From a virus: a DNA stretch of 38,389 bases. A program made the translations under genes and the position numbers. The notes beneath the pieces are model-generated. The model made no database searches. It saw nothing but the letters and a program-made list of their open reading frames with translations, and was not told where the DNA came from. Location: the IMG/VR virus record IMGVR_UViG_3300030102_004528, positions 1-38,389 of that record. One strand, written 5' to 3'. The number at the start of each line of letters is the position of its first letter. Positions within the stretch are counted from its first letter, which is position 1. Positions 36-29,387 of the stretch are shown piece after piece.

Positions 36-428
36 TTAGTTATTCGACAAAAAATTTTCTATATTGTTCCAATCTTTAGTTATACTATATTTATTAAAAT
101 CTTCTGGTGTAACACCTTTAGCAAGAGTTTCACCATCTTTACTATGAAACAAATAAACATCTCTATCTTTTTTAACAAGTATAAATACTTTACCGCCATA
201 AAATTCGTATGATTTATGCCATGCAAGTTGTTCTATCGTAAGACCAACTTTAATTTTTGTCTTTCTTCTTTTAGGAGTTTTAACATATTTACCTTCAATC
301 CAACCACAATGACCACCATAAGTAACATAATGAACATCAGGGATCCCTCGTTCTATTTGTGTTTCAATTCTTTGTATAAAAAAATTTTTAAGTTTCTTTC
401 TGATCTGTGTCCAGAGTGTCTTTTCCAT
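36..428 (-). CDS. VRR-NUC / PD-(D/E)XK-like nuclease
   Basis: Small protein of 130 residues with the layout of phage PD-(D/E)XK nucleases of the VRR-NUC or Holliday-junction-resolvase kind. A GIPDV motif near residue 28 supplies the metal-binding Asp. It is followed by a strand ending in WIEGK (the E-x-K pair), a TIEQLAWH helix start and a GGKVFILVK strand. The usual E-L-K is E-G-K here. Such nucleases resolve branched DNA or degrade host DNA; which one applies here cannot be read from the sequence. The start lies inside the 3' end of the NAD synthetase gene (41-base overlap), so it is the last gene of the leftward operon in this window. Confidence 0.75.
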   Translation of the reverse strand: MEKTLWTQIRKKLKNFFIQRIETQIERGIPDVHYVTYGGHCGWIEGKYVKTPKRRKTKIKVGLTIEQLAWHKSYEFYGGKVFILVKKDRDVYLFHSKDGETLAKGVTPEDFNKYSITKDWNNIENFLSNN

Positions 429-1164
429 CGAATTTACATACAGGTATTGGTTTCATCTTATGCAAATTCTTCTTTCTAATTGCAAGATATTTTTCATAAC
501 CGACTTCATCTGGTCTTGTCATTAAATGTTCTATCTCTTTATAACTCATTCCTAATTGATCTGTATCTGTTCTACCGTCAGACCATAATCCATCTGTAGG
601 TTCAGCCATTTGTATTTCTTCTAAAATTCCTAATTCTTTTCCCATAGACCAAACTTGACTTTTATTACAATCAGCAATTGGAGATATATCAACACCACCA
701 TCCCCATATTTTGTATAAAATCCTACACCAAAATCCTCAACTTTATTTCCTGTGCCAACAACTATACCTGATGTACTTGCTGATATTTGATATAGAGTCA
801 TCATTCTTAATCTTGCTTTAGAATTAGCAAAACCTAAATCAGAAGTAAATTTTTTATCTTTCAAACTATTTTCAAAAGTAAGAAAAGGATATGTTAGATC
901 AATTTCAACATTATATGCGTTTTGAAATTTATTAGTTAACCATTGAGCATGTTTAATTGATAAATCATGATGCTCGGGTCTTTGAGATATTGGCATGGAA
1001 GCTACGAGTGTTTTTATTCCAGTACGTGCACACAATGTAGAAACTACTGATGAATCAATTCCACCAGAAACTCCTACAACTAAACAATTAGCTGGAGTAT
1101 CCATACTCTCAACATAGTCTTTTATCCAATCGGTTATTATCTTTACTCTGTCTTTTGCTTCCAT
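388..1164 (-). CDS. nadE: NH3-dependent NAD+ synthetase
   Basis: NAD synthetase (258 residues), which amidates nicotinate adenine dinucleotide to NAD+ using ATP and ammonia. The PP-loop SGGIDSS is at residues 33-39. Further family blocks are GTGNKVEDFGVGFYTKYGDGG and, later, PTDGLWSDGRTDTDQLG. The length fits the stand-alone synthetase domain; there is no glutaminase domain, so free ammonia or a host partner is needed. The start is supported by GGAG seven bases upstream. It overlaps the stop of the UDP-sugar dehydrogenase gene by 22 bases, so the two are co-translated. The neighbouring dehydrogenase uses NAD+, which makes cofactor supply one possible role; countering NAD-depleting host defences is another. 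Confidence 0.93.
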   Translation of the reverse strand: MEAKDRVKIITDWIKDYVESMDTPANCLVVGVSGGIDSSVVSTLCARTGIKTLVASMPISQRPEHHDLSIKHAQWLTNKFQNAYNVEIDLTYPFLTFENSLKDKKFTSDLGFANSKARLRMMTLYQISASTSGIVVGTGNKVEDFGVGFYTKYGDGGVDISPIADCNKSQVWSMGKELGILEEIQMAEPTDGLWSDGRTDTDQLGMSYKEIEHLMTRPDEVGYEKYLAIRKKNLHKMKPIPVCKFDGKDTLDTDQKET

Positions 1165-2423
1165 GTATTGTCTCCAATAGGTATATACTTTACATCATTT
1201 CCTAACTTTAGATACCTAAATGGATCAATCACAATTGAATTAGGATAGAAGTAAAACTGTTTAAATACTTCGTGTTTTGTTCCAATAAAAAATAATTGTG
1301 GTTTCGTTTCCCATTCCATTTCTTGAGAAATATCTTTTAAATCTTTTGTATCAACATATGGATCCCATATTTTAATTTTTTCTCCTCTTTCTTCTAAAAT
1401 GTTTTTCAACAATAAACTAGGACTACCAAGCGTTAAATTAGTTTCAGGTTTAAAACATTTACCTAAAATATTTATATCCATTTCAAATTTTTCAGAAATA
1501 ATTAAATCTGCTAACCAATCAGTTTGTTTTTCTCTTTGTCTCATAATATTGTCATACCAATTATGTGAAAGATTTAATTTTTGAGCTAAGTAACTAAGAG
1601 CTATATTATCACGAGGATGACAACCACCTCCATCTCCCATTCCACCATATAGATATTTGTCACTTATTAATCTTGTTGTGCATAAAGAAAAAGCTCTACT
1701 AATATCATCTATGTTTGTATTTGGTAAATTGTGGCAAGTTTCCATCAAAGTATTAATCATAGCAATTTTAGTTGAAATAAATGTATTATAAGCAACTTTA
1801 ATTAATTCTGCATTTTCAATTGTTGTATCAAATAAAGGAGCATTGTTTATTGTTTTATAAAATTCTTTTGCTTTCTCTAATGCATTGATATCATCAACAC
1901 CAAATAAATTTATTTCAGCATTTAAAAAATCGTCAATTGTAGTACCCATAGCAATAAAATATGGATTATAACAAAGTTTTAAATGTTTGCCTAAAATTGG
2001 TTTAATATGTTTTGTAATAGTACCAGGAAGGACAGTAGATATAATAACAACAACTTTATCTTTACCTTGTTTTTCGATTTCTTCATTTAATTCTTTTATT
2101 CCTTTCTTTAAATATTCATAGTTAAAATCTTTTCTTTCTTCTGGTATTCTTGTTATACCTTCATATTTTTCTTCATGAGGTGTTTGAATTGGAACAAAAA
2201 TTATATCAGAATCAGAAACTATTTGCTCAACATTTTTTATTTCAATTTTAGAATTATTTAGTAGTTCTTGAGCACCTTTTTCTTTATAATTGAGTGTTTT
2301 AAATCTTATATTTCTTAATGTAATATCATTTATATCTGTACCAAAAACAGTATGTCCTTTACTTTCTACTGCTAGTGCAACAGGTAAACCTAATTTTCCT
2401 AGTCCTAAGAATCCTATTTTCAT
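1143..2423 (-). CDS. UDP-glucose / UDP-sugar 6-dehydrogenase
   Basis: Member of the UDP-glucose / GDP-mannose / UDP-ManNAc dehydrogenase family, 426 residues, full length. These enzymes oxidise C6 of a nucleotide sugar to the uronate with two NAD+. The N-terminal Rossmann motif GFLGLGKLGLP is at residues 4-14. The central domain has ELIKVAYNTF (Lys209, Asn213) and the catalytic Cys268 in GGGCHPRD. The C-terminal UDP-binding domain starts around NILGKCFKPETN. The exact sugar cannot be decided. In the same operon is a beta-glucosyltransferase-like gene, so this enzyme may supply an oxidised UDP-sugar donor (UDP-glucuronate, also a precursor of UDP-pentoses) for DNA or virion decoration. It starts three bases after the polymerase stop. 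Confidence 0.88.
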   Translation of the reverse strand: MKIGFLGLGKLGLPVALAVESKGHTVFGTDINDITLRNIRFKTLNYKEKGAQELLNNSKIEIKNVEQIVSDSDIIFVPIQTPHEEKYEGITRIPEERKDFNYEYLKKGIKELNEEIEKQGKDKVVVIISTVLPGTITKHIKPILGKHLKLCYNPYFIAMGTTIDDFLNAEINLFGVDDINALEKAKEFYKTINNAPLFDTTIENAELIKVAYNTFISTKIAMINTLMETCHNLPNTNIDDISRAFSLCTTRLISDKYLYGGMGDGGGCHPRDNIALSYLAQKLNLSHNWYDNIMRQREKQTDWLADLIISEKFEMDINILGKCFKPETNLTLGSPSLLLKNILEERGEKIKIWDPYVDTKDLKDISQEMEWETKPQLFFIGTKHEVFKQFYFYPNSIVIDPFRYLKLGNDVKYIPIGDNTWKQKTE

Positions 2424-2426
2424 AAT

Positions 2427-4280
2427 TCATTTTGCTGTACCCCAATTACTTCCTTTCTCAACATCTACTTCTAAAGGTACACTTATTTCTACACAATTTT
2501 TCATAATATGTATAGCTTCATTTAAACATTTTTGTTGTAATTTATCAACAGAAAAATCTAATTCATCATGTATAGTTAATTTTAAATCAATATAATCTAA
2601 ATATCCATCTTCCCATATTTTTAACATTGCTGCTTTTGTAATATCTGCAGAGCTACCTTGTATCAAAGCATTTAAAGCAGTATGAGTATAAGCTCTTTTT
2701 AATTCTTGTTTATGATATTTAGTTGATGCTTCTGATAATGGATATGCTTTTTGTCCCCACTCATCTCTTGGTTCCCATAAATCAAATCTTCTTTTTCTAC
2801 CTAATAAAGTTTTTATGTAACCTCTGGTGCTTGCAACATGAGATACTTGTCTTGATAATTCTTTAACAAATGGTACTTTACCATGATAATTATTAAATAA
2901 TTCATAAGCTTGATCTAATTCTAAACCTAATTCAGCAGCAAGTTTTTTATTTCCCATACCATAAAATAAACCTAAATTAATAGTTTTGGCTTGTTTTCTA
3001 GGTATACCAGCCATTTTAGCTACCATAGAATGAAAGTCTGTTTTAGGATTATTTAGATATTCTTTTTGTAATGACATTGCTGTATCCATTAATTTTAGAC
3101 TAGCATAATGTACTAACACTCTTGGTTCTTGTTGTGCATAATCACAAGCTACCCAATCGTGATTTTCTTCTGGTAAAAACAAACTTCTGATCATCGGACC
3201 AAGTTCTGGATCTCTCGCAGGCACTTGTTGTAGATTAGGATATTGAGAGCTAAATCTACCTGTAACAGTACCCATAGGATTAAAGCTACAATATATTCTT
3301 CCATTCTTAGCTTTATCTAGAATCATGTTTTTAATAAATGTATTTCTAATCTTGTCTAACTTTCTTATTTGTAATATAGTTTTAGAAACGTCATCAATTT
3401 GAGTTTCCAACCAACTCGCAGTGAAACTCGGAGTTCCTTTTGCGGTGTGGTTATACTGAATCGAATTATTATCATATGCTTGTTTTAGTGAAGCATTTGC
3501 CCATACATTAACTTCACTTCCTCCAAGTCTATTTAGTATTGATTGATGATCTTGTTGTTTTTTTTCTAATTCGTCATACAATTCTTCTGCTCTAGAAATG
3601 TTTACTCGTACTCCACCTTTTCGCATATGAAATAATAAAGGTATTAATCTTGATTCAAATACAACAATACTTTGTACTTGTTCTCTTTCAATTCTTGGCT
3701 GTTGTTTTAGAAAAATATCTAAAGTCAATTTTGCATCTGCTTTAGCATACTCAGCAACTTCGTTTGCGTGTAATCTCCACAAGCTTTCTTTTACTTTAGC
3801 ACGCTTTCCAAACTTAGCGATCACTGCAGTTTCTAATTCAACTTCATACTTAGATTTTCTCAAATAAAATTTGGCAAGTGAATCTAAAGAATACTTTAAT
3901 TTATTTTCATCTAATAAATGTTCAATAGTTTGAATATCGAAAATCCTATGATACTTACTAAGGGTAAGTCTATTATCCAGTGAATAAAGCCACTCTACGT
4001 CATACATTGCGTTAGCAAATACCATTGAAATACGTTTTTCTTCACATCTGTTATAAATGTATTTAATAAATCTAATTACTTTTTCTTTGTCTAAATTACC
4101 TCCGCCTTGATGACCGATAGGATAATATTCATTTAAACCTGTATCTGTTGCAATAGATATGCCTGCTACGTGACCATCTTTTCTAAAACCTCCAGGTCCA
4201 TGTGTCTTTAGTTTAGGATCATGTGTTTCTGTATCTATAGCAATATAAGTTGCTGTATCTATTTTATTTAAATTAAACAT
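2427..4280 (-). CDS. Family A DNA polymerase with 3'-5' exonuclease
   Basis: T7-like replicative polymerase of 617 residues without a 5'-3' exonuclease domain. The DEDDy proofreading domain is intact: AIDTETHDP (ExoI), NAMYDVEWL (ExoII) and YAKADAKLT (ExoIII with Tyr). Polymerase motif A reads DYAQQEPRV, motif B RKQAKTINLGLFYG and motif C IHDELDFSV, so the catalytic Asp residues and the motif B Arg and Lys are present. The residue matching E. coli Pol I Phe762 is Leu. The start chosen is the ATG at 4280, which overlaps the upstream deaminase stop as TAATG. The reading frame is open a further 22 codons upstream, but that stretch lies inside the deaminase gene. The gene is embedded in a nucleotide-modification operon. 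Confidence 0.96.
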   Translation of the reverse strand: MFNLNKIDTATYIAIDTETHDPKLKTHGPGGFRKDGHVAGISIATDTGLNEYYPIGHQGGGNLDKEKVIRFIKYIYNRCEEKRISMVFANAMYDVEWLYSLDNRLTLSKYHRIFDIQTIEHLLDENKLKYSLDSLAKFYLRKSKYEVELETAVIAKFGKRAKVKESLWRLHANEVAEYAKADAKLTLDIFLKQQPRIEREQVQSIVVFESRLIPLLFHMRKGGVRVNISRAEELYDELEKKQQDHQSILNRLGGSEVNVWANASLKQAYDNNSIQYNHTAKGTPSFTASWLETQIDDVSKTILQIRKLDKIRNTFIKNMILDKAKNGRIYCSFNPMGTVTGRFSSQYPNLQQVPARDPELGPMIRSLFLPEENHDWVACDYAQQEPRVLVHYASLKLMDTAMSLQKEYLNNPKTDFHSMVAKMAGIPRKQAKTINLGLFYGMGNKKLAAELGLELDQAYELFNNYHGKVPFVKELSRQVSHVASTRGYIKTLLGRKRRFDLWEPRDEWGQKAYPLSEASTKYHKQELKRAYTHTALNALIQGSSADITKAAMLKIWEDGYLDYIDLKLTIHDELDFSVDKLQQKCLNEAIHIMKNCVEISVPLEVDVEKGSNWGTAK

Positions 4281-4744
4281 TAGTTTGTCTTTCCTATTAA
4301 ATATTTTAAATTTATATATGTATAATTTCTTTGAGACTTTTCCCACAATTCTCTAGCTTTAGTATGAACATATCTTTCTCCAAAAATTATTTGATTAGCG
4401 GATGTATTTAAAAGAAGTTTTATACAATGAATACAAGGTTCTAATGTAGTATAAACTCTATCAATGTCATAAACATCTTTACATTGTAGTAATGCATTTT
4501 GCTCTGCATGTATTGCTTCGCACTTATCTAAATCTTTTCCACTTTCAGAAGTAGAACCAGAACACGGATTATCTATGCAATGTTCAAATCCAGAAGGATT
4601 ACCATTATATCCTGTAGCTATCACATGATTTTTTTTATTTACAAATACACAACCAACTTTTCTCCTAGCACAAGTTCCTCTTTCAGAAACTAATTTAGCC
4701 ATTCTTAAAAAATAAAAATCTGCTGGTGGTCTATAATTATCCAT
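4280..4744 (-). CDS. dCMP deaminase
   Basis: Deoxycytidylate deaminase of 154 residues (ComEB / T4 cd type), converting dCMP to dUMP. The zinc site is visible as HAE at residues 79-81 and PCIHC at 103-107. An extra Cys/His-rich insertion (EHCIDNPCSG) before it is typical of dCMP deaminases with a second zinc. The ATG at 4744 was preferred to an earlier in-frame start at 4780 because the protein then begins with the family-typical RPPADFYFLRMA and overlaps the preceding gene by only 8 bases. It is coupled to the polymerase by TAATG. T4 pairs the same enzyme with dCMP hydroxymethylase in its dNTP-synthesis complex. Confidence 0.92.
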   Translation of the reverse strand: MDNYRPPADFYFLRMAKLVSERGTCARRKVGCVFVNKKNHVIATGYNGNPSGFEHCIDNPCSGSTSESGKDLDKCEAIHAEQNALLQCKDVYDIDRVYTTLEPCIHCIKLLLNTSANQIIFGERYVHTKARELWEKSQRNYTYINLKYLIGKTN

Positions 4745-5573
4745 AAAGAAGGTAATTAAGCCTTTCTGATAACATACCATTAGGTCTTATCTCTGTACCT
4801 TCTAAATCTGCCATTTCTTCTAAAATTTTAATAAATTTTAAAGGTCTATCTTTATATTTATCAATAAGATTATTTAAAGAAATTTCAGATTTATCATCAA
4901 AATGAGATGTAAAAACACTATCTAATTTTTTGTAATCAGTTTCATAAATATGTCTACTACCGGCTTGAATAGTTAATTCACCTAATTTACATTTAACTCC
5001 TAATTTATTTAAATGTAATGCAATAAAAAAAGATATAGCACTAAAATTAAAAGTATCATATGGTACACCTAACCAAGCATCGTTACTTCTCATATTAGCA
5101 ATAGTATGTAACCATAATTCATCGCTTGCTTCTCTTAAAAAAAATTGTAAAGTAAGTGTACATGGAATATCTTTACTTGATCTAGGATTTTCTCTCCATA
5201 TACTAATTACTGCTTGTCTACTATCTTGATCAGTGATTAATGTCTTAACTACATAACCCCATTGAGTAATTATTTTAGGTCCATATGCACCAAAAAAAGT
5301 TTCACCATCGTCACTAAATCTTGTAATTCCTCCTACATATTTACTTACGCTTTCTACATCGTTCTTACCTTGAAGCATCCATGTAGCTTCACCAAACATA
5401 AATGGATAAGATAGTTTTCTTTCTGGTAAAGTAATAATAGGATCATCCATATCAACTTTCCAAGTATGATTTATTTTTTCGCTTATTTTTAAATCTCTTG
5501 GTTTACAAATAAAATCTGGTTGACGATACACGTCCCATAACATTTTTTTATAATTTAAATTTATATCTTTCAT
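4737..5573 (-). CDS. ThyA-family dCMP hydroxymethylase (or thymidylate synthase)
   Basis: Thymidylate-synthase-fold enzyme, 278 residues. The catalytic Cys138 is in IPCTLTLQF, the phosphate-binding segment is DSRQAV at 117-122, and RSND is at 162-165. The key point is residue 173: the block reads RSNDAWLGVPYD, with Asp where thymidylate synthases have Asn (E. coli Asn177, L. casei Asn229). T4 dCMP hydroxymethylase has Asp179 at this place, and CT-T-Q after the catalytic Cys and NMRSND also look T4-like rather than TS-like. It probably acts on dCMP to give 5-hydroxymethyl-dCMP; methylation of dCMP, or ordinary dTMP synthesis, is not excluded. Coupled by TAATG to the kinase-like gene upstream. 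Confidence 0.85.
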   Translation of the reverse strand: MKDINLNYKKMLWDVYRQPDFICKPRDLKISEKINHTWKVDMDDPIITLPERKLSYPFMFGEATWMLQGKNDVESVSKYVGGITRFSDDGETFFGAYGPKIITQWGYVVKTLITDQDSRQAVISIWRENPRSSKDIPCTLTLQFFLREASDELWLHTIANMRSNDAWLGVPYDTFNFSAISFFIALHLNKLGVKCKLGELTIQAGSRHIYETDYKKLDSVFTSHFDDKSEISLNNLIDKYKDRPLKFIKILEEMADLEGTEIRPNGMLSERLNYLLYG

Positions 5574-6130
5574 TAATTTATTATCCTATCTATAAATTCG
5601 TCCATTTTATGTCCATCTTTATAAAAATCATATCTTATGAAATCGGCTCTTTCTTTAAGAGGAGACAATGATCCAATAAAATTTTTACTTTCCATTCTTG
5701 AATACCAAGCGTGATAATAACCATCTATGACTTTATCAATATCCCAATATTCTTCATTTCTTTTAGTCCTGTTTATTCTATGATTTTCTTTTACTTGTGT
5801 TTTATCTTCTGGTATACACCAAATATATTTTGCATTTCTTTCTTTTAATTTATTATACAAATATCTAGGATTATAACTAGGTCCTTTACTTCTAATATAA
5901 GAATAAAATTGTTCACTAGGCCAATGTCTATCTAATAAAACTAACTTACCTATCATTTGTTTTTTTATAGCCATTCTTGCAGTGGCTGTATGCCATAATA
6001 ACATATTCTTATGCACTCTTAAATGCATGTAAAAATTATTCTTAAATCTTCTTCTGATTCTATCAATAAGTGTAGTTTTACCTACACCATCTGGTCCTTC
6101 TACAATTAAGATTTTTCCTCTAATAAACAT
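5573..6130 (-). CDS. Thymidylate kinase-like (deoxy)nucleoside monophosphate kinase
   Basis: P-loop kinase of 185 residues with the thymidylate-kinase layout: Walker A GPDGVGKTT at residues 12-20, a DRH motif at 67-69 inside LLDRHWPSEQFYS, and an Arg-rich lid-like segment (NHRINRTKRNEEYW). It should phosphorylate a deoxynucleoside monophosphate. Between a dCMP-hydroxymethylase-like gene and a glycosyltransferase gene, its substrate may be 5-hydroxymethyl-dCMP (the job of T4 gp1) or dTMP; the sequence does not decide. Its start overlaps the end of the glycosyltransferase gene by 25 bases, and its stop forms TAATG with the next start. Confidence 0.82.
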   Translation of the reverse strand: MFIRGKILIVEGPDGVGKTTLIDRIRRRFKNNFYMHLRVHKNMLLWHTATARMAIKKQMIGKLVLLDRHWPSEQFYSYIRSKGPSYNPRYLYNKLKERNAKYIWCIPEDKTQVKENHRINRTKRNEEYWDIDKVIDGYYHAWYSRMESKNFIGSLSPLKERADFIRYDFYKDGHKMDEFIDRIIN

Positions 6131-7152
6131 CTAAAAAATTCTTTCGTTCTTTCTCTATTCCAAAATTTAGTTTTTAAAACATCCATATGTTCTCTTGAAA
6201 TATTTAATAATTCTTCTTTATTAGAATTTTCTATTTTATTTAAATCAGAAGTTAAACCTAAAATTTTAGCTTCTTCAGGATGAGCATAAACTATACATTT
6301 AGCATCTAATGCCATTTTGTATCTTACTCTCCACCAGCCTGATCCTTTAGCTGTATGATAATGTGGTGGACTTATTATTCCCCATACTTTTCTATATTCT
6401 TGAAACATTTCATGTTCTTTTAATCGTGTTTGACCTTCTCTTTGATTTCCAAAAGTTTTAATTCTCCATTTAAAATTTTGACCATTTAGCCAACCTTGTT
6501 TACTTACAAGACTAGCACAAATCCAAGCATTTTCTTTTATTCCATCATTAGGTGCAAAATTATTTAATAAATCTTCTTGATTATCAGGACTTTTTAAATA
6601 TGTATCTGTATAAGCAGAAGGATCCCAATTAATTATTTCTTTTGCTTTCATACCTAATTCTTCGTAATTACCACCGTCATAAGCTGGAATTAACAATTTA
6701 TGAGGCCATTCTTTATGAGCAAAATGATCTACTAAATCCTCTATTTCTTTTTTAAATGGTTGAGCCTCGTCCCAATATACTTTACCTACAGGATTTCCGG
6801 CTTTAGAAAGTTTTTTCCATATTCTCCAATGACCATTACTAAATGTTCTAAATCCACTTACTGAATCTTTTGTTTGCCAGTCATCAATAGAAACTATTGC
6901 ATCAGGTCTTTTTATAATTGTATATGCTGCACCGTACCAATATCTTGCTGAAAGACTATTAGGTCCGAATACATAAACAAAAACTTTATCATACATTGAT
7001 ACATCTTCTCCCGGGACAATAGCTTTTTGAGTTACTTCATGTCCTAATTCTTCTAAAACTTTTGGTAAAATTCTTGCTGATGTAGCAATATTTAATGGTG
7101 ATCTAGCTGTACCAATTGATAAAGCATTAAATCCTGTTACTAATATCTTCAT
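6106..7152 (-). CDS. GT-B glycosyltransferase resembling T4 DNA beta-glucosyltransferase
   Basis: Protein of 348 residues, almost the length of T4 beta-glucosyltransferase (351). From memory of that protein, matching blocks in the same order are the N-terminal MKILVTG strand, an IDD at 89-91 near T4 catalytic Asp100, FGNQREGQTR at 235-244 (T4 FGNAREKQFK), and RVRYKMALDA at 275-284 (T4 RVWETMASDA, containing UDP-binding Arg269). The T4 Glu272 position is Tyr here. A role in transferring a sugar to 5-hydroxymethylcytosine in DNA fits the neighbours. Another acceptor or sugar is possible, and the match needs a profile search. It overlaps the MazG-like gene by 26 bases. Confidence 0.68.
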   Translation of the reverse strand: MKILVTGFNALSIGTARSPLNIATSARILPKVLEELGHEVTQKAIVPGEDVSMYDKVFVYVFGPNSLSARYWYGAAYTIIKRPDAIVSIDDWQTKDSVSGFRTFSNGHWRIWKKLSKAGNPVGKVYWDEAQPFKKEIEDLVDHFAHKEWPHKLLIPAYDGGNYEELGMKAKEIINWDPSAYTDTYLKSPDNQEDLLNNFAPNDGIKENAWICASLVSKQGWLNGQNFKWRIKTFGNQREGQTRLKEHEMFQEYRKVWGIISPPHYHTAKGSGWWRVRYKMALDAKCIVYAHPEEAKILGLTSDLNKIENSNKEELLNISREHMDVLKTKFWNRERTKEFFRCLLEEKS

Positions 7153-7582
7153 TTTGTTTTTCCCTTTCTTCTTCTATAATTTGTTCAATATCTGGTGCAG
7201 TCCAACCTTTAGGTTTGACTACATCAAATGATGTACCTCGTTTTTTAGATTTGCTTTTAGTTCTTATCTTACTCATATTTGCTTTCTGTACCGCATCCCA
7301 TGCTTTATTAAAAGGTAAGTTAAAAAGCCATGCTGTACCTAAAGCAATATAAACTATATCTACAAGAGCATCTAAAGCTCCTGCTGCATCTTTTTTAGTA
7401 ATTGCTTGAGTATATTCTGCTAATTCTTCCATTAAAAAAGATGTTCTAAAATTTACGAGTTCATTATTATCAGGTATTCCTACCTTTTCGTTTTTTTCAA
7501 ATTTATATTTTTTATGAAAAGCATCAATATCTCTTATTAGTGTATCTTTATCCATATCTTCAAACATACCAGAATTTGTCAT
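7127..7582 (-). CDS. MazG-like all-alpha NTP pyrophosphohydrolase
   Basis: All-alpha NTP pyrophosphatase (MazG / PRA-PH group), 151 residues. The metal-binding signature is EELAEY at 52-57 followed by DALVDIVY with Asp71 and Asp75. The tail KKRGTSFDVVKPKGWTAPDI is shared by phage members of the group. Substrate is unknown. Such enzymes hydrolyse dNTPs or alarmones, and the T4 dCTPase/dUTPase gp56 belongs to the same broad superfamily, so a dCTPase supplying dCMP to the hydroxymethylase is attractive here. The ATG overlaps the upstream methyltransferase stop as TAATG, which supports this start over the internal Met6 or Met10. Confidence 0.85.
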   Translation of the reverse strand: MTNSGMFEDMDKDTLIRDIDAFHKKYKFEKNEKVGIPDNNELVNFRTSFLMEELAEYTQAITKKDAAGALDALVDIVYIALGTAWLFNLPFNKAWDAVQKANMSKIRTKSKSKKRGTSFDVVKPKGWTAPDIEQIIEEEREKQNEDISNRI

Positions 7583-8637
7583 TAAAGCAAAGCCTCTTGT
7601 TCTGGAACTTTTCTATAATCTACAATTTTTAATTCTTCTTTCGCTTTCGTTTTATCTTCTATACTATTTTTAATAATTCTTGCTACATATTCAGCTACAG
7701 GTGGCATTACACCTCTTGCAATTTGTGATCCGATAGAAGAAGCAGGTCCTTCCCATTTGTAATCTACAGGATACCCTGCCATATAAGCTAATTCCTTATG
7801 ACCAAATAATCTATCTTCTGTAGGATGTATATAAAAACCTCCAGCAATAACTGGTATATGTGCATCTGATTTTAATCTCCATTTCATAAATTGTGGTCTA
7901 CCTTTAACTCCACCACGCATACCACCTCTAACCCAAGTTTCTGGTGGATTATATCTTTCCCATGTAACCCTTAAACTTTCTCCTTGTTTACAATGTTTAA
8001 GATAAGGTTTTTCATTTTCACCTAATTTCATTAAATGACCAATGTCACCATGTTCTTTTTTAAAAGAACTTAATACTTCACCTGCAGTTGGTAATGGTTG
8101 AAAGTTTAAACCGCCTGCATTTAAATTATATTTAGTTGCTATAAAGAAAAATCTTTTTCTTGAATGATTTAAACCAGTAAAGCCACCATCAATTAAAAGA
8201 TGAGTTACTTGATAACCAAGTTTATTAGCTTCTTCAGTCAATTCCATGATCATCGGTCGACCGCCATTTTTACTATAAACTCTTGGAACAGATTCAATTG
8301 CTATAGCTTTAGGTTTTAATTCTTTTAATAAATTAAAACTATCTCTCCAACATTTAATTCTAGGATCATCTCTCCATGCTCCTGCACCTTTTTGAGCTCC
8401 ACCTAAATTAGACCAAGGCGCACATGGTGGATTACAGTAAACAAAATCTATTTTATTTTTATATTTTTCTCTTGGCCAATCATCCTCACCTTCGTAAATT
8501 GGTATGTTAGGAAAATTAGCTTTAAATGTTTTTTTGTATAATCCAGGTTTCATTTCAAAATGAGCTTGAACGTCAAAATGTTTACTAACACCAATGGTAA
8601 AACCACCGGCAAAAATGTAAGTTCCTAATGCTTTCAT
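7582..8637 (-). CDS. C5-cytosine DNA methyltransferase homologue
   Basis: DNA (cytosine-5) methyltransferase, 351 residues. Motif I is degenerate (FAGGFTIGVSKHF, residues 9-21). Motif IV is NPPCAPWS at 69-76 with the catalytic Cys72, motif VI is ESVPRV at 115-120 (ENV in most members), motif VIII is NHSRKRFFFIA at 157-167, and motif X is GSQIARGVMPPVAEYVA. The specificity region between VIII and X is short. It should methylate, or otherwise attack, C5 of cytosine in DNA. No restriction endonuclease is next to it, so it is probably self-protection or modification. It sits immediately upstream of the MazG/glycosyltransferase/hydroxymethylase genes, which is odd if cytosine is already replaced by hydroxymethylcytosine. 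Confidence 0.88.
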   Translation of the reverse strand: MKALGTYIFAGGFTIGVSKHFDVQAHFEMKPGLYKKTFKANFPNIPIYEGEDDWPREKYKNKIDFVYCNPPCAPWSNLGGAQKGAGAWRDDPRIKCWRDSFNLLKELKPKAIAIESVPRVYSKNGGRPMIMELTEEANKLGYQVTHLLIDGGFTGLNHSRKRFFFIATKYNLNAGGLNFQPLPTAGEVLSSFKKEHGDIGHLMKLGENEKPYLKHCKQGESLRVTWERYNPPETWVRGGMRGGVKGRPQFMKWRLKSDAHIPVIAGGFYIHPTEDRLFGHKELAYMAGYPVDYKWEGPASSIGSQIARGVMPPVAEYVARIIKNSIEDKTKAKEELKIVDYRKVPEQEALL

Positions 8638-10165: not shown

Positions 10166-10714
10166 TTATTTCATAAATATTTGAACAGATATTCTAGGCA
10201 TAACGTCTGTTATTACTGGCACTACTTTATGTGGAATAGGCGATTTAATAATCAACAAAGAGTTTCCTATAATTGGAATATATCCTGATCCTTTAATATG
10301 AGAAAACAAAAGTTCTCCACCCCATTGTTTACTCCATCTTTTATTTACATAATAAGTAATACCATATTTCCAGTTGCTATCATCGTGCCAATTAATACCT
10401 GCTCCTTTTTTCATATAATGAATCAAAAAAACATTTTTTTCAACATCGTCTAATTTAAAAAAAGGATTGTGTTTTATTAAAGTTAAAAGTTTTTGAAAAG
10501 GTCTATAAGTTAAAGGTTTATTTAACATTATATCGCTTTTTAAAGGTGGTTGTATATTTTCATATAAAAACTTAGGCCAATCTTTTTCAATAGAATGTAA
10601 TTTTATTTTATTTCTATCTTTAATTATAGAGTTATGAATATTTTTATATGTACTGTAATCTAAAAAATTATCTATCCACCATACTTTACCTGGAATATGT
10701 AAACGTAAATTCAT
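10166..10714 (-). CDS. 2OG-Fe(II) oxygenase
   Basis: 2-oxoglutarate/Fe(II) dioxygenase of the prolyl-4-hydroxylase-like group, 182 residues. Iron ligands are H110 and D112 in NWHDDSNWK and H162 in IPHKVVPV; R174 in PRISVQIF is placed to bind 2-oxoglutarate. The middle has the usual ITYYVNKRW...GGELLF. The substrate is unknown. It differs from the five oxygenases at 26326-29387 in that it sits among DNA-replication genes, between the DEDDh exonuclease and the UvrD-like helicase. A nucleic-acid substrate (repair, or oxidation of 5-methylcytosine) is therefore conceivable, but no TET-specific motif was recognised. Confidence 0.85.
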   Translation of the reverse strand: MNLRLHIPGKVWWIDNFLDYSTYKNIHNSIIKDRNKIKLHSIEKDWPKFLYENIQPPLKSDIMLNKPLTYRPFQKLLTLIKHNPFFKLDDVEKNVFLIHYMKKGAGINWHDDSNWKYGITYYVNKRWSKQWGGELLFSHIKGSGYIPIIGNSLLIIKSPIPHKVVPVITDVMPRISVQIFMK

Positions 10715-25789: not shown

Positions 25790-26326
25790 ATGCCATATGA
25801 ATCATTAGAACAAGCTAAATTATTTCACAATGCTAATTCTTTAAATTGGTCAGGTGAAGCTTTAGCTGAATATAAACATCAAATCAAAGCTTTAATAGAT
25901 GAAAAAAAACCAAAATCCATATTAGATTATGGATGTGGAAAAGCTCTTTTTCATAAACATTTTTTACCAACTATATTTAGAGGCATAATGATTTTTTGTT
26001 ATGATCCTGCAGTTAAAGATTTTGAAAATAAACCACAAAAAGAAATAGATTTAACCCTTTGTATAGACGTTATGGAACATGTACAAGAAGATAAAATTGA
26101 TGAAGTTTTAAAAGATTTATTTACTAATACTAAATTTGTATTTTTAACCATTACATGTTATGATGCAATTCAAAAATTACCTAATGGTAAAAATGCTCAC
26201 TATACTGTAAAACCACCTAGTTGGTGGAATGATAAGCTTAAACCTTATGATGGTAAATATCAAGTTGTTTTTCAAGAAAAAAGAGAAAGAAGTAAAATAG
26301 TAAGAAATCCAGATCCAAAGGATTAA
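25790..26326 (+). CDS. Class I SAM-dependent methyltransferase
   Basis: 178 residues with motif I as SILDYGCGKALFHKHF, the acidic ribose-binding Asp in CYDPAV, and motif IV-like LTLCIDVMEHVQED. A C-terminal block NAHYTVKPPSWWNDKL is distinctive. I recall similar proteins in marine phages, often near glycan or oxygenase genes. The acceptor is unknown. First gene of a four-gene rightward operon; its stop overlaps the next start as TAATG. No Shine-Dalgarno is seen before the ATG. Confidence 0.83.
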   Translation: MPYESLEQAKLFHNANSLNWSGEALAEYKHQIKALIDEKKPKSILDYGCGKALFHKHFLPTIFRGIMIFCYDPAVKDFENKPQKEIDLTLCIDVMEHVQEDKIDEVLKDLFTNTKFVFLTITCYDAIQKLPNGKNAHYTVKPPSWWNDKLKPYDGKYQVVFQEKRERSKIVRNPDPKD

Positions 26327-26805
26327 TGAGTGCAAAAGTAATTAAAAATTTTTTACCTCTAGATTTAATTAAGTTTTTAGAAAAATCTTTTTTATATGAC
26401 GTACCTCATTCTTTTGGACATGTTTCTGATCCTAATAGTGAAAATAATATTAATTTTTATAATTCAAATTTAAATATGAATGACACTATGCTTAGATATA
26501 TAGTAGAAAAATTGAGAGAACACTTTACATTTAAAGATGTTTTAAGATCCTATATTAATGTTCAGCATTATAAAATGGATGGAAACTGGCATACTGATGA
26601 TGGTGCTTTAACTATATTACTAATGATTACAAAAACTTTAAAAAAAGGAGAGGGTTGTTTTCAAATAAAAGAAAATGACAATATTACAAATTATGATTTT
26701 GAGCAGAATACTTTAATTGGATTCAATGCAAAATCTTTACATAGAGGATTAGCTCCAGATAATCTTCATAACCCTAGAATAACTTTAGCATTCAAAACTT
26801 TATGA
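26326..26805 (+). CDS. 2OG-Fe(II) oxygenase
   Basis: 159 residues. Iron ligands H89 and D91 lie in NWHTDDGALTILLM and distal H139 in SLHRGLAP; R151 in PRITLAFK should bind 2-oxoglutarate. The short double-stranded beta-helix is complete. The substrate is unknown. It is coupled to the methyltransferase by TAATG and to the ParB-like gene by ATGA, so these products are made together and may act on one target. Confidence 0.82.
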   Translation: MSAKVIKNFLPLDLIKFLEKSFLYDVPHSFGHVSDPNSENNINFYNSNLNMNDTMLRYIVEKLREHFTFKDVLRSYINVQHYKMDGNWHTDDGALTILLMITKTLKKGEGCFQIKENDNITNYDFEQNTLIGFNAKSLHRGLAPDNLHNPRITLAFKTL

Positions 26806-27146
26806 AAATTCTAAAAGCAAAAATTAAATGGTTTCCAAAAAAAATAATAAATGTAACCAAAGATAATTTAAAAATTGATTGGGAACAAAAACATTTAGAT
26901 CAAGTAAAGAAGTTTATGAAAAAAGATGGTCTTATGTTTCCAGGAGTAATTAAAGATGATGAAATTCATTGTGGACATTATAGACTTAAAATAGCAAAAG
27001 AAATGGGTTATGATGGAATAGAAATGTATAACGTAGATACATTTAAAGAAGTATTATATTTAACACAATTTTCAGAATTATGTTATAAACACTATAAAGA
27101 ATTAAAAGAATTAAAAATAAAACATAAAATTAAAAATTATTTATGA
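26802..27146 (+). CDS. ParB/sulfiredoxin-like domain protein
   Basis: 114 residues. The middle, GLMFPGVIKDDEIHCGHYRLKIAKEMGYDGIEMYNV, follows the ParB N-terminal pattern: a preferred-value strand, a G-H-x-R turn (here GHYR) and the A-x-x-x-G helix. Phage ParB-like proteins of this kind may bind or cut DNA, or act as CTP/ATP-dependent enzymes; there is no helix-turn-helix domain as in true ParB. The Lys-rich termini suggest nucleic-acid contact. ATGA overlaps at both ends show translational coupling. Confidence 0.65.
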   Translation: MKILKAKIKWFPKKIINVTKDNLKIDWEQKHLDQVKKFMKKDGLMFPGVIKDDEIHCGHYRLKIAKEMGYDGIEMYNVDTFKEVLYLTQFSELCYKHYKELKELKIKHKIKNYL

Positions 27147-27739
27147 TAAAGTTTAATAACAAAGATAAATTAAATCCTACTAATAATTCACTATATGTTT
27201 CTTATTTAAGAAATGTACAAATAAGTTGTGGAACCTATCCTTATCCAGAAGATATACATAATTTAATTATTGAAATAAAAAACAATTTAAGTCAAAAATT
27301 AGAGAAAGCAACCAATGTTTATGGAGGAATGACTGATTGGGAGTTTTTTAATAATCACCCAATATTTTTAAAATTTTTAACTTGGTTTATAAATACTCAT
27401 CAAATTTCTAATCATGAATTAAAAAACTTTCATGAATTTAAATTTTTAAAAGAAGCATGGGGAAATGAATTAAAAAAAGGTCATAGTGTTCAAATACATG
27501 ATCATTTTGATTATCATGGAATACTCTATTTGACTAAAGGTAGTCCTTTAATAGTCCCTGAATTAAATTTAACTATACTTCCAGAACCTGGTGATTATTA
27601 TTTTTTTCCACCTAATATTAAACATTATGTACCAGAAGTTCAAACAGATGAAACAAGGTATTCTGTTGTATTCAATATTGCTCTTAAATTAGATTGGGAT
27701 AAAAAGAAAAGATTAAATTTGAATAATGAAGTTAGTTAG
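27143..27739 (+). CDS. 2OG-Fe(II) oxygenase / cupin-like hydroxylase
   Basis: 198 residues. VQIHDHFDYHGILYLTKG carries the metal site (H119, H121, D123), followed by PGDYYFFPPNIKHYVPEV with distal H161 and R172 in ETRYSVVFNI. The pattern fits the putative 2OG-Fe(II) oxygenase family found in cyanophages and marine bacteria. Which His is a ligand is uncertain. The N-terminal 100 residues are helical and not assigned. Last gene of the rightward operon; its 3' end overlaps the 3' end of the convergent oxygenase gene by 8 bases, leaving no room for a terminator. Confidence 0.78.
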   Translation: MIKFNNKDKLNPTNNSLYVSYLRNVQISCGTYPYPEDIHNLIIEIKNNLSQKLEKATNVYGGMTDWEFFNNHPIFLKFLTWFINTHQISNHELKNFHEFKFLKEAWGNELKKGHSVQIHDHFDYHGILYLTKGSPLIVPELNLTILPEPGDYYFFPPNIKHYVPEVQTDETRYSVVFNIALKLDWDKKKRLNLNNEVS

Positions 27740-28337
27740 GCAATGCTAACATCCATGATGTTACAATATATTTTGTTTCTTTTAATGGTGGATTACCTCT
27801 ATGAACATATGGAAAACCTGAAGGCCATATAGCAATTCTGCCTGTTTTAGGTTTTACTCTTTTTTTCTGAAATAAAAATTCAGTTTCTCCTGCTTCTTCC
27901 ACATCATTTAAATAAATTGTATAAGCAAGAACTCTATTAAACATTTCACTATGTCCTTGTTTTTCTACATGCCAAGCATGATATCCTTGACCAGGTTTTG
28001 TTTTTTGAATTTTTACAGTTGTAAAATTAATATCTTTTACTCCACAAAAAGATAAGATTTGAGTTTCTTTAACATATTCTCTTAATGCTTGTTCGAAATT
28101 TATCATTAAGGTATTTAGAGCTCCTTTCCAAACTTCTAATGTATCTCCAGTTAACATAAGAGTTTCATCATTAAATCTGGTAACATCAGCACTATGATAC
28201 TGACTTCTTTTAAGGGTTTTATTAAGTTTATTTTGATCTTCATAATATTTTATAGCTTTATTACAAATTGTATCGTCTAAATACCCATCATATATTCCTA
28301 TAAAATCTTCAATACACTGTGTTTTTTTCACGAACAT
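27732..28337 (-). CDS. 2OG-Fe(II) oxygenase
   Basis: 201 residues, with the iron site H123-x-E125 in YHAWHVEKQG (Glu instead of Asp), the strand pair LAYTIYLNDV...GETEFLF, and distal H179 in FPYVHRGNPP, followed by KYIVTSWML. Start choice: the ATG at 28337 is only one base from GGAG, whereas an in-frame GTG at 28331 has seven bases of spacing, so translation may begin at the GTG (two residues shorter). It overlaps the preceding oxygenase gene by 29 bases. Substrate unknown. Confidence 0.82.
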   Translation of the reverse strand: MFVKKTQCIEDFIGIYDGYLDDTICNKAIKYYEDQNKLNKTLKRSQYHSADVTRFNDETLMLTGDTLEVWKGALNTLMINFEQALREYVKETQILSFCGVKDINFTTVKIQKTKPGQGYHAWHVEKQGHSEMFNRVLAYTIYLNDVEEAGETEFLFQKKRVKPKTGRIAIWPSGFPYVHRGNPPLKETKYIVTSWMLALPN

Positions 28338-28848
28338 TCTCCTCTATATTATTTCTAAATGGACCATTTCTATCTACATAATGAAAAAAAACTTGAGGAT
28401 TATCTAATCCTTTAAAAGGTTTTCTTCCGTGTGGTACATCGTGTCCTAAATACATTAAAGCGTCTCCAACTTTTATGTTAATCCATTTATTATTCATATG
28501 AATAGGCCATTTAACTCCACAATTATAAATAGGAGCTGTAATACTAATTTCACATTCAGGTCTATCTGTATGTGTTTTTAGAATAGATCCATATATATAA
28601 TATCTCCAAAAAGAATAAGTTTGAAACAATTTTAAACCTGCTTCTTTTTCTGCTCTTTCTTTTTTCAAGAATAAAAAAGTATTCATTAATGAATCTTTAT
28701 AAAAAGAAGGACAAATTGGAGATTGAGTATCTGATACAAAATTTTCTTCAAGTATTTTTTGTTTACAATATTCTTTTAAAATTAGTAACTCTTTTTTATC
28801 AAAGAAGTTTTTAATATAAATATATTTTTTATTTTTTATATTAGCCAT
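28309..28848 (-). CDS. 2OG-Fe(II) oxygenase-like protein
   Basis: 179 residues. Iron ligands H93 and D95 in LKTHTDRPECEISIT, distal H140 in GHDVPHGRKPF, then PQVFFHYVDRNGPF. The Arg normally found after the distal His is not clear; Q152 is near that place. This DVPHGR...HYVDRNG pattern recurs in hydroxylase-like proteins of marine phages. Unknown substrate. It overlaps the neighbouring oxygenase genes at both ends. Confidence 0.75.
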   Translation of the reverse strand: MANIKNKKYIYIKNFFDKKELLILKEYCKQKILEENFVSDTQSPICPSFYKDSLMNTFLFLKKERAEKEAGLKLFQTYSFWRYYIYGSILKTHTDRPECEISITAPIYNCGVKWPIHMNNKWINIKVGDALMYLGHDVPHGRKPFKGLDNPQVFFHYVDRNGPFRNNIEENVREKNTVY

Positions 28849-29387
28849 GCAACTATACTATATCTCTTTCCTTTAGTTATTGGTTCAATTTTATGAGGAT
28901 ATAAAAAATTACTTGGAAAAAAAACTGTTGTTCCTTTTTTCATTTTTATTGTTTTAATAACATTTTCATATTTCATATCATAAAAATTTAAATCGCCACC
29001 TTCATAATCGTTATTTAAATTTATTATACAGCTTAATCTTCTGAAAGACGTTGGTCCTTCATCTATATGAGTTTCATATTTTCCGCCAGGAGAATATTGT
29101 AATAAATCTACTTGACATATTTTAATTAATTCTATAAATTTAAATTTAGCTGTATAATTTACTAAAATTTTATTTATTTCTTGAGCAATATAACAAAACA
29201 AAATTCTTTCTGACATATTAGAATTTTTATTTAAAGTTCTACCTTCAACATTTCTAATATTTAAATACAAACCTCCACTTACATTTAAAGGTTTTAATTC
29301 TACTTTATTAATATATTTGATAATACGTTCTATTAATTGTTCACTAAATAAATTATCTATTTGTAAAATAGCATCTGTTACTTTCAT
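28836..29387 (-). CDS. 2OG-Fe(II) oxygenase, PKHD-type prolyl hydroxylase-like
   Basis: 183 residues with a textbook P4H-like core: H107 and D109 in KYETHIDEGPT, LSCIINLNNDYEGGDLNFYD, FFPSNFLYPHKIEPITKGKRYSIVAWL giving distal H165 and R175 as the 2-oxoglutarate ligand. It is the clearest of the six oxygenases. PKHD-type enzymes hydroxylate prolyl or other residues; the phage target is unknown. First of three leftward oxygenase genes that overlap in series. Confidence 0.88.
   Translation of the reverse strand: MKVTDAILQIDNLFSEQLIERIIKYINKVELKPLNVSGGLYLNIRNVEGRTLNKNSNMSERILFCYIAQEINKILVNYTAKFKFIELIKICQVDLLQYSPGGKYETHIDEGPTSFRRLSCIINLNNDYEGGDLNFYDMKYENVIKTIKMKKGTTVFFPSNFLYPHKIEPITKGKRYSIVAWLI

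Follow-up and report, generated by a model that had tools for sequence, protein, structure and literature searches.

A gene on the minus strand of the window (6106..7152), i.e. of the whole 38,389-nucleotide stretch of virus DNA analyzed here, very probably encodes a DNA glycosyltransferase with hydroxymethylcytosine (hmC) as its target. The fold and family of the protein, the assignment of a neighboring product as dCMP hydroxymethylase, the conserved gene link, and the absence of other known hmC transferases from the isolates tested are supported by computation. The sugar donor is moderately likely to be something other than UDP-glucose, as judged from the gene context, and would in this phage probably be UDP-glucuronate or a sugar made from it.

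The gene, its family and its neighbors

The open reading frame (ORF) is real: it runs from 7152 down to 6106 with 348 codons, and the plus strand across the same positions is full of stops. Position and length agree with the initial annotation, which gave no strand. The profile of PHROG_14998, a family annotated as "unknown function" and formally uncharacterized, matches the 348-aa product full-length (E=7.5e-26, residues 1-339). Members of this family occur in more than 450 IMG/VR stretches, and relatives are found in phages of Aeromonas, Gordonia, Erwinia, Morganella, Providencia, and Stenotrophomonas; a search of bacterial and archaeal genomes, conducted solely with sequence patterns of the 348-aa protein, returned no relatives.

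The ORF is embedded in a run of genes on the same strand that mostly abut or overlap. In the order of transcription, this run comprises a C5-cytosine DNA methyltransferase (C5MT; 7582..8637), a MazG-type nucleotide pyrophosphohydrolase as candidate dCTP-removing enzyme (7127..7582), the putative hmC-DNA glycosyltransferase itself, a P-loop dNMP (thymidylate-kinase-like) kinase as candidate hydroxymethyl-dCMP kinase (5573..6130), an enzyme of the thymidylate synthase (TS) fold predicted to be a dCMP hydroxymethylase (4737..5573), a dCMP deaminase (4280..4780), a family A DNA polymerase (2427..4346; identified by tblastn to phage DNA polymerase A/I), a nucleotide-sugar, probably UDP-glucose, 6-dehydrogenase as candidate for the donor pathway (1143..2423), and NadE, an ammonia-dependent NAD synthetase paired with the dehydrogenase (388..1164), all encoded on the minus strand. 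The record that holds the window is a 39.7-kb virus contig and probably an incomplete one, a fragment. Similarity to marine phages, including the Pelagibacter phages HTVC023P and HTVC027P, is seen in its polymerase and in part of the tail region.

Fold and relation to T4 beta-glucosyltransferase

The initial annotation had described the protein as a divergent relative of T4 DNA beta-glucosyltransferase (BGT) and had proposed a structural comparison, which supports the idea, by a narrow margin, at the level of the fold. A confident AlphaFold model, built from an alignment of 47 family relatives, reached a pLDDT of 87.3 and a pTM of 0.86. T4 BGT (1bgu) ranks first in a Foldseek search of the PDB (E=1.1e-5) and fills the top three rows of a VIA-align comparison (Z 17.1-16.8 over 294-287 residues at ~4.0 A), followed by SenB (Z 16.4) and T4 alpha-glucosyltransferase (AGT; Z 15.4). 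The lead of BGT over other GT-B enzymes, first in both comparisons, amounts to less than one Z unit. The outcomes that would have spoken against the initial annotation, a fold unlike GT-B or a closer relationship to transferases that do not act on DNA, did not occur; SenB practically ties with BGT. The model describes the 348-aa protein as a predicted GT-B enzyme with T4 BGT, narrowly, as its nearest solved structure.

The relationship is not recognizable from direct sequence comparison. BLASTP against T4 BGT gives E=0.63, and alignment scores, whether local (z = -0.03) or global (z = -0.2; both against 300 shuffles), equal those of shuffled sequence, which leaves no direct signal. PDB sequence searches with the protein and with the profile yielded nothing relevant. 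At the family level, hhalign connects PHROG_14998 with the BGT family at 84% in the C-terminal donor domain; 30 column-shuffled BGT profiles stay at or below 0.7% and the reversed profile at 0.1%. AGT and the family of RB69 ORF003c each score 0.3% and two other phage glycosyltransferases 0.2%, where AGT and the latter two entered as single sequences, a weaker comparison; the single T4 BGT sequence in place of its family profile reaches only 16.5%. Among unrelated neighbor families, the highest score was 46%, from a Rossmann-fold epimerase cluster over 31 columns. As far as profiles can tell, the donor domain has a remote link that is specific to BGT. None of the 47 members matches PF09198, the BGT Pfam model covering the N-terminal domain, at E<=0.1 (T4 BGT itself scores 325 bits), the 348-aa protein does not match the BGT family PHROG_7922, and BGT and PHROG_14998 are separate PHROGs. 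For these reasons, we treat PHROG_14998 as a family of its own that resembles BGT in fold and donor domain, and not as a BGT.

With T4 BGT (gene b-gt), the protein shares the predicted GT-B fold, nearly the length (348 versus 351 aa), an Asp in the D100 region, a conserved Arg that aligns with R269, and a dCMP hydroxymethylase gene nearby; it differs in its insignificant pairwise similarity, the missing PF09198 match, the lack of an acidic residue at the E272 position, and the other sugar-nucleotide genes alongside. AGT (PF11440) likewise combines the GT-B fold with DNA as acceptor, but scores lower structurally, shows no profile link, and is longer (400 aa).

The blocks on which the kinship with BGT had originally been argued are IDD and RVRYKMALDA, located as described at residues 89-91 and 275-284, and FGNQREGQTR, which lies at 234-243, one residue before the 235-244 first given. 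Their T4 counterparts are FTDIR (98-102, with D100), LRVWETMASDA (268-278, with R269 and E272), and FGNAREKQ (213-220). Since pairwise similarity to BGT is no better than that of shuffled sequence, these motifs alone prove nothing, and the correspondence becomes informative only at the family level: hhalign pairs, unprompted, R275 with R269 and Y278 with E272. R275 belongs to the signature GSGWWRVR (residues 270-277, 6322..6345 on the minus strand), directly followed by Y278. D90-D91 (6880..6885, minus strand) are the candidate catalytic base, D91 being placed at the D100 position by register only. R269 and E272 have recognized roles in T4 BGT. In the family alignment, D90 is conserved in 47/47, D91 in 44/47, R275 in 43/47, and R277 in 46/47 members; in FGN..RE.Q, solely G235 is conserved. 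The PDB title of 1nzd indicates that D100 was chosen for a T4 BGT mutant. A second, diverged family copy lies near the first at L030:12121-13137, L034:13000-14010, L090:7032-8054, L092:7035-8045, L102:6947-7939, and L115:1832-2863. In the aligned set, D91 is lost in three members and R275 in four. Second copies apparently make up most of these, and they may lack activity or differ in specificity.

The replacement of Glu272 by Tyr had been read as a hint to a changed donor. The alignment of Y278 with E272 stands, but the residue argument is weak: position 278 is Pro in 22, Tyr in 19, and Phe in 4 of the 47 members, otherwise Trp or Ile, and never acidic, so the absence of the Glu is a trait of the whole family and not peculiar to the window protein. 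A changed donor is nonetheless reasonable, owing to the sugar-nucleotide genes of the context and not to this position.

Candidate sources of the acceptor and of the sugar donor

The TS-fold product of 4737..5573 carries D173 at the position of T4 D179 (N177 in E. coli TS), D135 at the position of T4 D145 (L143 in E. coli TS), and the catalytic C138 (T4 C148). In T4 dCMP hydroxymethylase, D179 is the determinant for dCMP over dUMP, and D145 is a polar residue unique to the active site of this enzyme (PMC6400193). The neighboring "thymidylate synthase" holds the residues that are diagnostic of a dCMP hydroxymethylase. RB69-type enzymes make 5-hydroxy-dCMP (PMC13390438). At the positions equivalent to 143, 169, and 209 of E. 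coli TS, the window protein shows D135, D165, and Y210, like T4; RB69 and Morganella phage Rgz1 show Glu, Asn, and Phe, and the window protein does not resemble an RB69-type 5-hydroxy-dCMP synthase at these positions. It is presumably this choice of residues that decides the product, and the RB69-like paralog of the Morganella phage may accordingly lead to hydroxycytosine rather than hmC.

A TS paralog with the diagnostic Asp is present in 6/7 complete phage records with a family member. The seventh, phage C48C1, lacks a TS altogether but encodes a Tet_JBP (TET) oxygenase immediately upstream of its gene copy, so that all seven contain a candidate source of C5-oxidized cytosine. That one and the same gene is combined with either of two unrelated routes to modified cytosine speaks most strongly for DNA as the acceptor, and hmC is the likely acceptor of the window enzyme. 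BGT, AGT, and the RB69 ORF003c family are absent from all seven records. Conversely, 11 comparison records, among them those of T4, RB69, and four further phages that carry BGT or ORF003c relatives, gave no hit with the PHROG_14998 profile, a search with no positive control of its own, although the profile matches family members in other searches. Several small 2OG-Fe(II) oxygenase-like ORFs lie at 10166-10714 and 26326-29387 of the window, four of them with Pfam matches. A TET route was rejected for the window, as its record yields no Tet_JBP match and these ORFs match other oxygenase families.

The donor was approached via gene-context counts over 74 distinct loci. In 25/74, a UDP-galactopyranose mutase gene (UGM) is directly adjacent to the glycosyltransferase gene, and in 9 of these GalE lies directly on the other side; both enzymes together complete the path UDP-Glc -> UDP-Gal -> UDP-Galf. 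Such triplets (L080, L081, L084, L087, L095, L105, L107, L111, and L116) predict galactofuranosyl-hmC DNA. Nothing relevant on Galf-DNA or on UDP-galactopyranose mutase with hmC in phages was found in the literature searched.

In the clade of the window, wherever the locus extends far enough, the polymerase is followed by the dehydrogenase and this by NadE. The sister clade (47-50% identity; L063-L069 and L024) carries a UDP-glucuronate decarboxylase (UXS; human UXS1 8e-90, 304 bits versus 118 for the next kind), and a dehydrogenase was not found in seven of its records that were searched. The gene backbone is common to both clades, with the sugar genes swapped on it: in L002, dehydrogenase and NadE lie between polymerase and endonuclease; in L063, polymerase and endonuclease are direct neighbors, and UXS lies between exonuclease and helicase. 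UXS forms a pair with a short dehydrogenase in the record of L074, and L090 combines a dehydrogenase with UXS. The sugar-gene labels are strongly grouped on a maximum-likelihood tree (11 changes versus a shuffled mean of 33.6), to which near-identical sequences contribute. This suggests that UDP-glucuronate is on the donor path in the lineage of the window, either as donor or as precursor. A search of the window record revealed neither UXS nor another PF01370 enzyme; as this record is probably a fragment, the absence proves little. Two relatives of the window phage encode an extra SDR-type sugar-nucleotide enzyme close to NadE (L002:15099-15926 and L124:3408-4265), which resembles GalE or UXS in sequence. 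A UXS identity of the SDR gene of L002 and L060 is not supported, as it scores about equally with GalE-type and UXS structures and misses the S-T-S-E stretch of the UXS proteins in L063 and the record of L074.

NadE and a nucleotide-sugar dehydrogenase recur as a two-gene module in unrelated phages (window 388-2423, L134:4204-6215, and L135:3123-5023). The window dehydrogenase has kept its catalytic Cys and Lys; the Glu of the NPE motif is replaced by Tyr or Phe throughout the aligned clade members, and among PDB matches GDP-mannose and UDP-glucose dehydrogenases are nearly tied. Because this Glu is missing, the product may not be UDP-glucuronate. A different reaction is conceivable from the gene pairing, e.g. 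uronamide formation together with the ammonia-using NadE.

A precedent comes from phage SP-15, which bears phosphoglucuronate on its DNA and encodes a UDP-glucose dehydrogenase in its genome (PMC5977210). Its hypermodification cluster would share with the pathway proposed for the window the link of a phage UDP-glucose dehydrogenase to uronic acid on DNA, but the SP-15 modification sits on dihydroxypentyl-uracil via a phosphodiester, not on hmC. For RB69 ORF003c, a candidate arabinosyltransferase (PHROG_8302), cytosine glycosylation with a non-glucose donor made by phage genes has likewise been proposed; no homology to it was found by sequence or profile, and PHROG_14998 never occurs in the same record among those searched. 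In Morganella phage Rgz1 (L028:5357-8776), genes for an arabinose-5-phosphate isomerase and for a relative of the RB69 pyrophosphorylase flank the PHROG_14998 gene, which takes the place of the arabinosyltransferase candidate in a UDP-arabinose module of the RB69 type; arabinose appears to be the sugar used by this family member.

Proposed pathway, alternatives and meaning

From these data, we infer DNA as the acceptor, the catalytic residues, the identity of the donor, and protection as the benefit. The dCMP hydroxymethylase would make 5-hydroxymethyl-dCMP, to be phosphorylated by the dNMP kinase and subsequently by the host NDK, with the MazG-type hydrolase and dCMP deaminase clearing competing dCTP and dCMP. 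The phage polymerase would build hmC into DNA, and in the finished DNA the glycosyltransferase would then glycosylate the hydroxymethyl group with a nucleotide-sugar donor; R275 (perhaps with R277) would bind the diphosphate, with D91 (or D90) as base. The donor would be UDP-glucuronate from the phage dehydrogenase, with NAD+ supplied by NadE, or a derivative such as UDP-xylose, and probably not plain UDP-glucose. The resulting mark is supposed to shield phage DNA from restriction and Cas nucleases.

It is rather unlikely that the enzyme glycosylates hmC-DNA with UDP-glucose, like T4 BGT, and that the dehydrogenase and NadE have another role, for instance in surface glycans, in NAD supply, or in counter-defence. 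Hosts commonly contain UDP-glucose, and one clade (L083, L097, L099, L106, L112, and L113) has no sugar-nucleotide gene nearby. Furthermore, NadE-dehydrogenase pairs occur without PHROG_14998 in pelagiphage HTVC008M, next to a carbamoyltransferase, and in the 642-kb phage LR756502; their dehydrogenases also lack the NPE Glu and keep Cys and Lys, these clusters look unrelated to DNA modification, and the pair may accordingly not feed the window glycosyltransferase. Against this, the pair in the window clade directly follows the polymerase within the same run of co-directional genes; the first 20 kb of the related pelagiphages HTVC023P and HTVC027P yielded neither the pair nor the hmC module, and the sister clade carries UXS instead on the same backbone.

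It is very improbable that the sugar goes to an acceptor other than DNA, for example a virion protein, a small molecule, or a glycan on the host surface. Many GT-B enzymes of similar fold act on such acceptors, and bacteria use GalE and UGM for surface glycans, but the oxidized-cytosine source (dCMP-hydroxymethylase-type TS or TET) in every complete record, the absence of other hmC transferases from the same records, and the fusion of the glycosyltransferase to a DNA methyltransferase speak for DNA. These fusions (L073:4399-7011, 870 aa, with the C5MT at residues 5-339 and the glycosyltransferase at 535-868; L075:143-2428, similar, 761 aa, truncated at its start by the end of the contig) also favor a further reading, in which the glycosyltransferase forms one unit with the neighboring C5-methyltransferase; the latter would flip or mark target cytosines, and only chosen sites would be glycosylated. 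A C5MT gene with intact catalytic motifs is present in the window, and one lies within 51/74 loci (40 + 11, from two seed types). No C5MT, however, was found in the examined stretch of Morganella Rgz1, Aeromonas 50AhydR13PP, Erwinia FBB1, and C48C1, and full replacement by hmC leaves a normal C5-methyltransferase little substrate. This reading is considered unlikely. In the preferred pathway with fully substituted DNA, the C5-methyltransferase would be left with little to do, a point that this model does not explain.

On a wider scale, it is a tentative possibility, put slightly below even, that PHROG_14998 is a widespread family of DNA glycosyltransferases with repeated donor switches: to galactofuranose in the mutase clade and, in the marine clade of the window, to glucuronate or a sugar derived from a uronate, such as xylose or perhaps, in view of the NadE partner and the altered dehydrogenase, a uronamide. 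Donor switching in this family is new relative to the literature searched and, if true, would write marks not described there on cytosine. A Tevenvirinae survey reported phage groups that have UDP-arabinose genes and no known arabinosyltransferase (PMC8056088); Rgz1, not among the phages named there, has PHROG_14998 inside that kind of module. A testable function is thereby named for a phage protein family listed as unknown, and DNA marks are predicted beyond glucose and arabinose, which bears on the evasion of restriction and CRISPR as well as on the enzymatic tagging of hydroxymethylcytosine.
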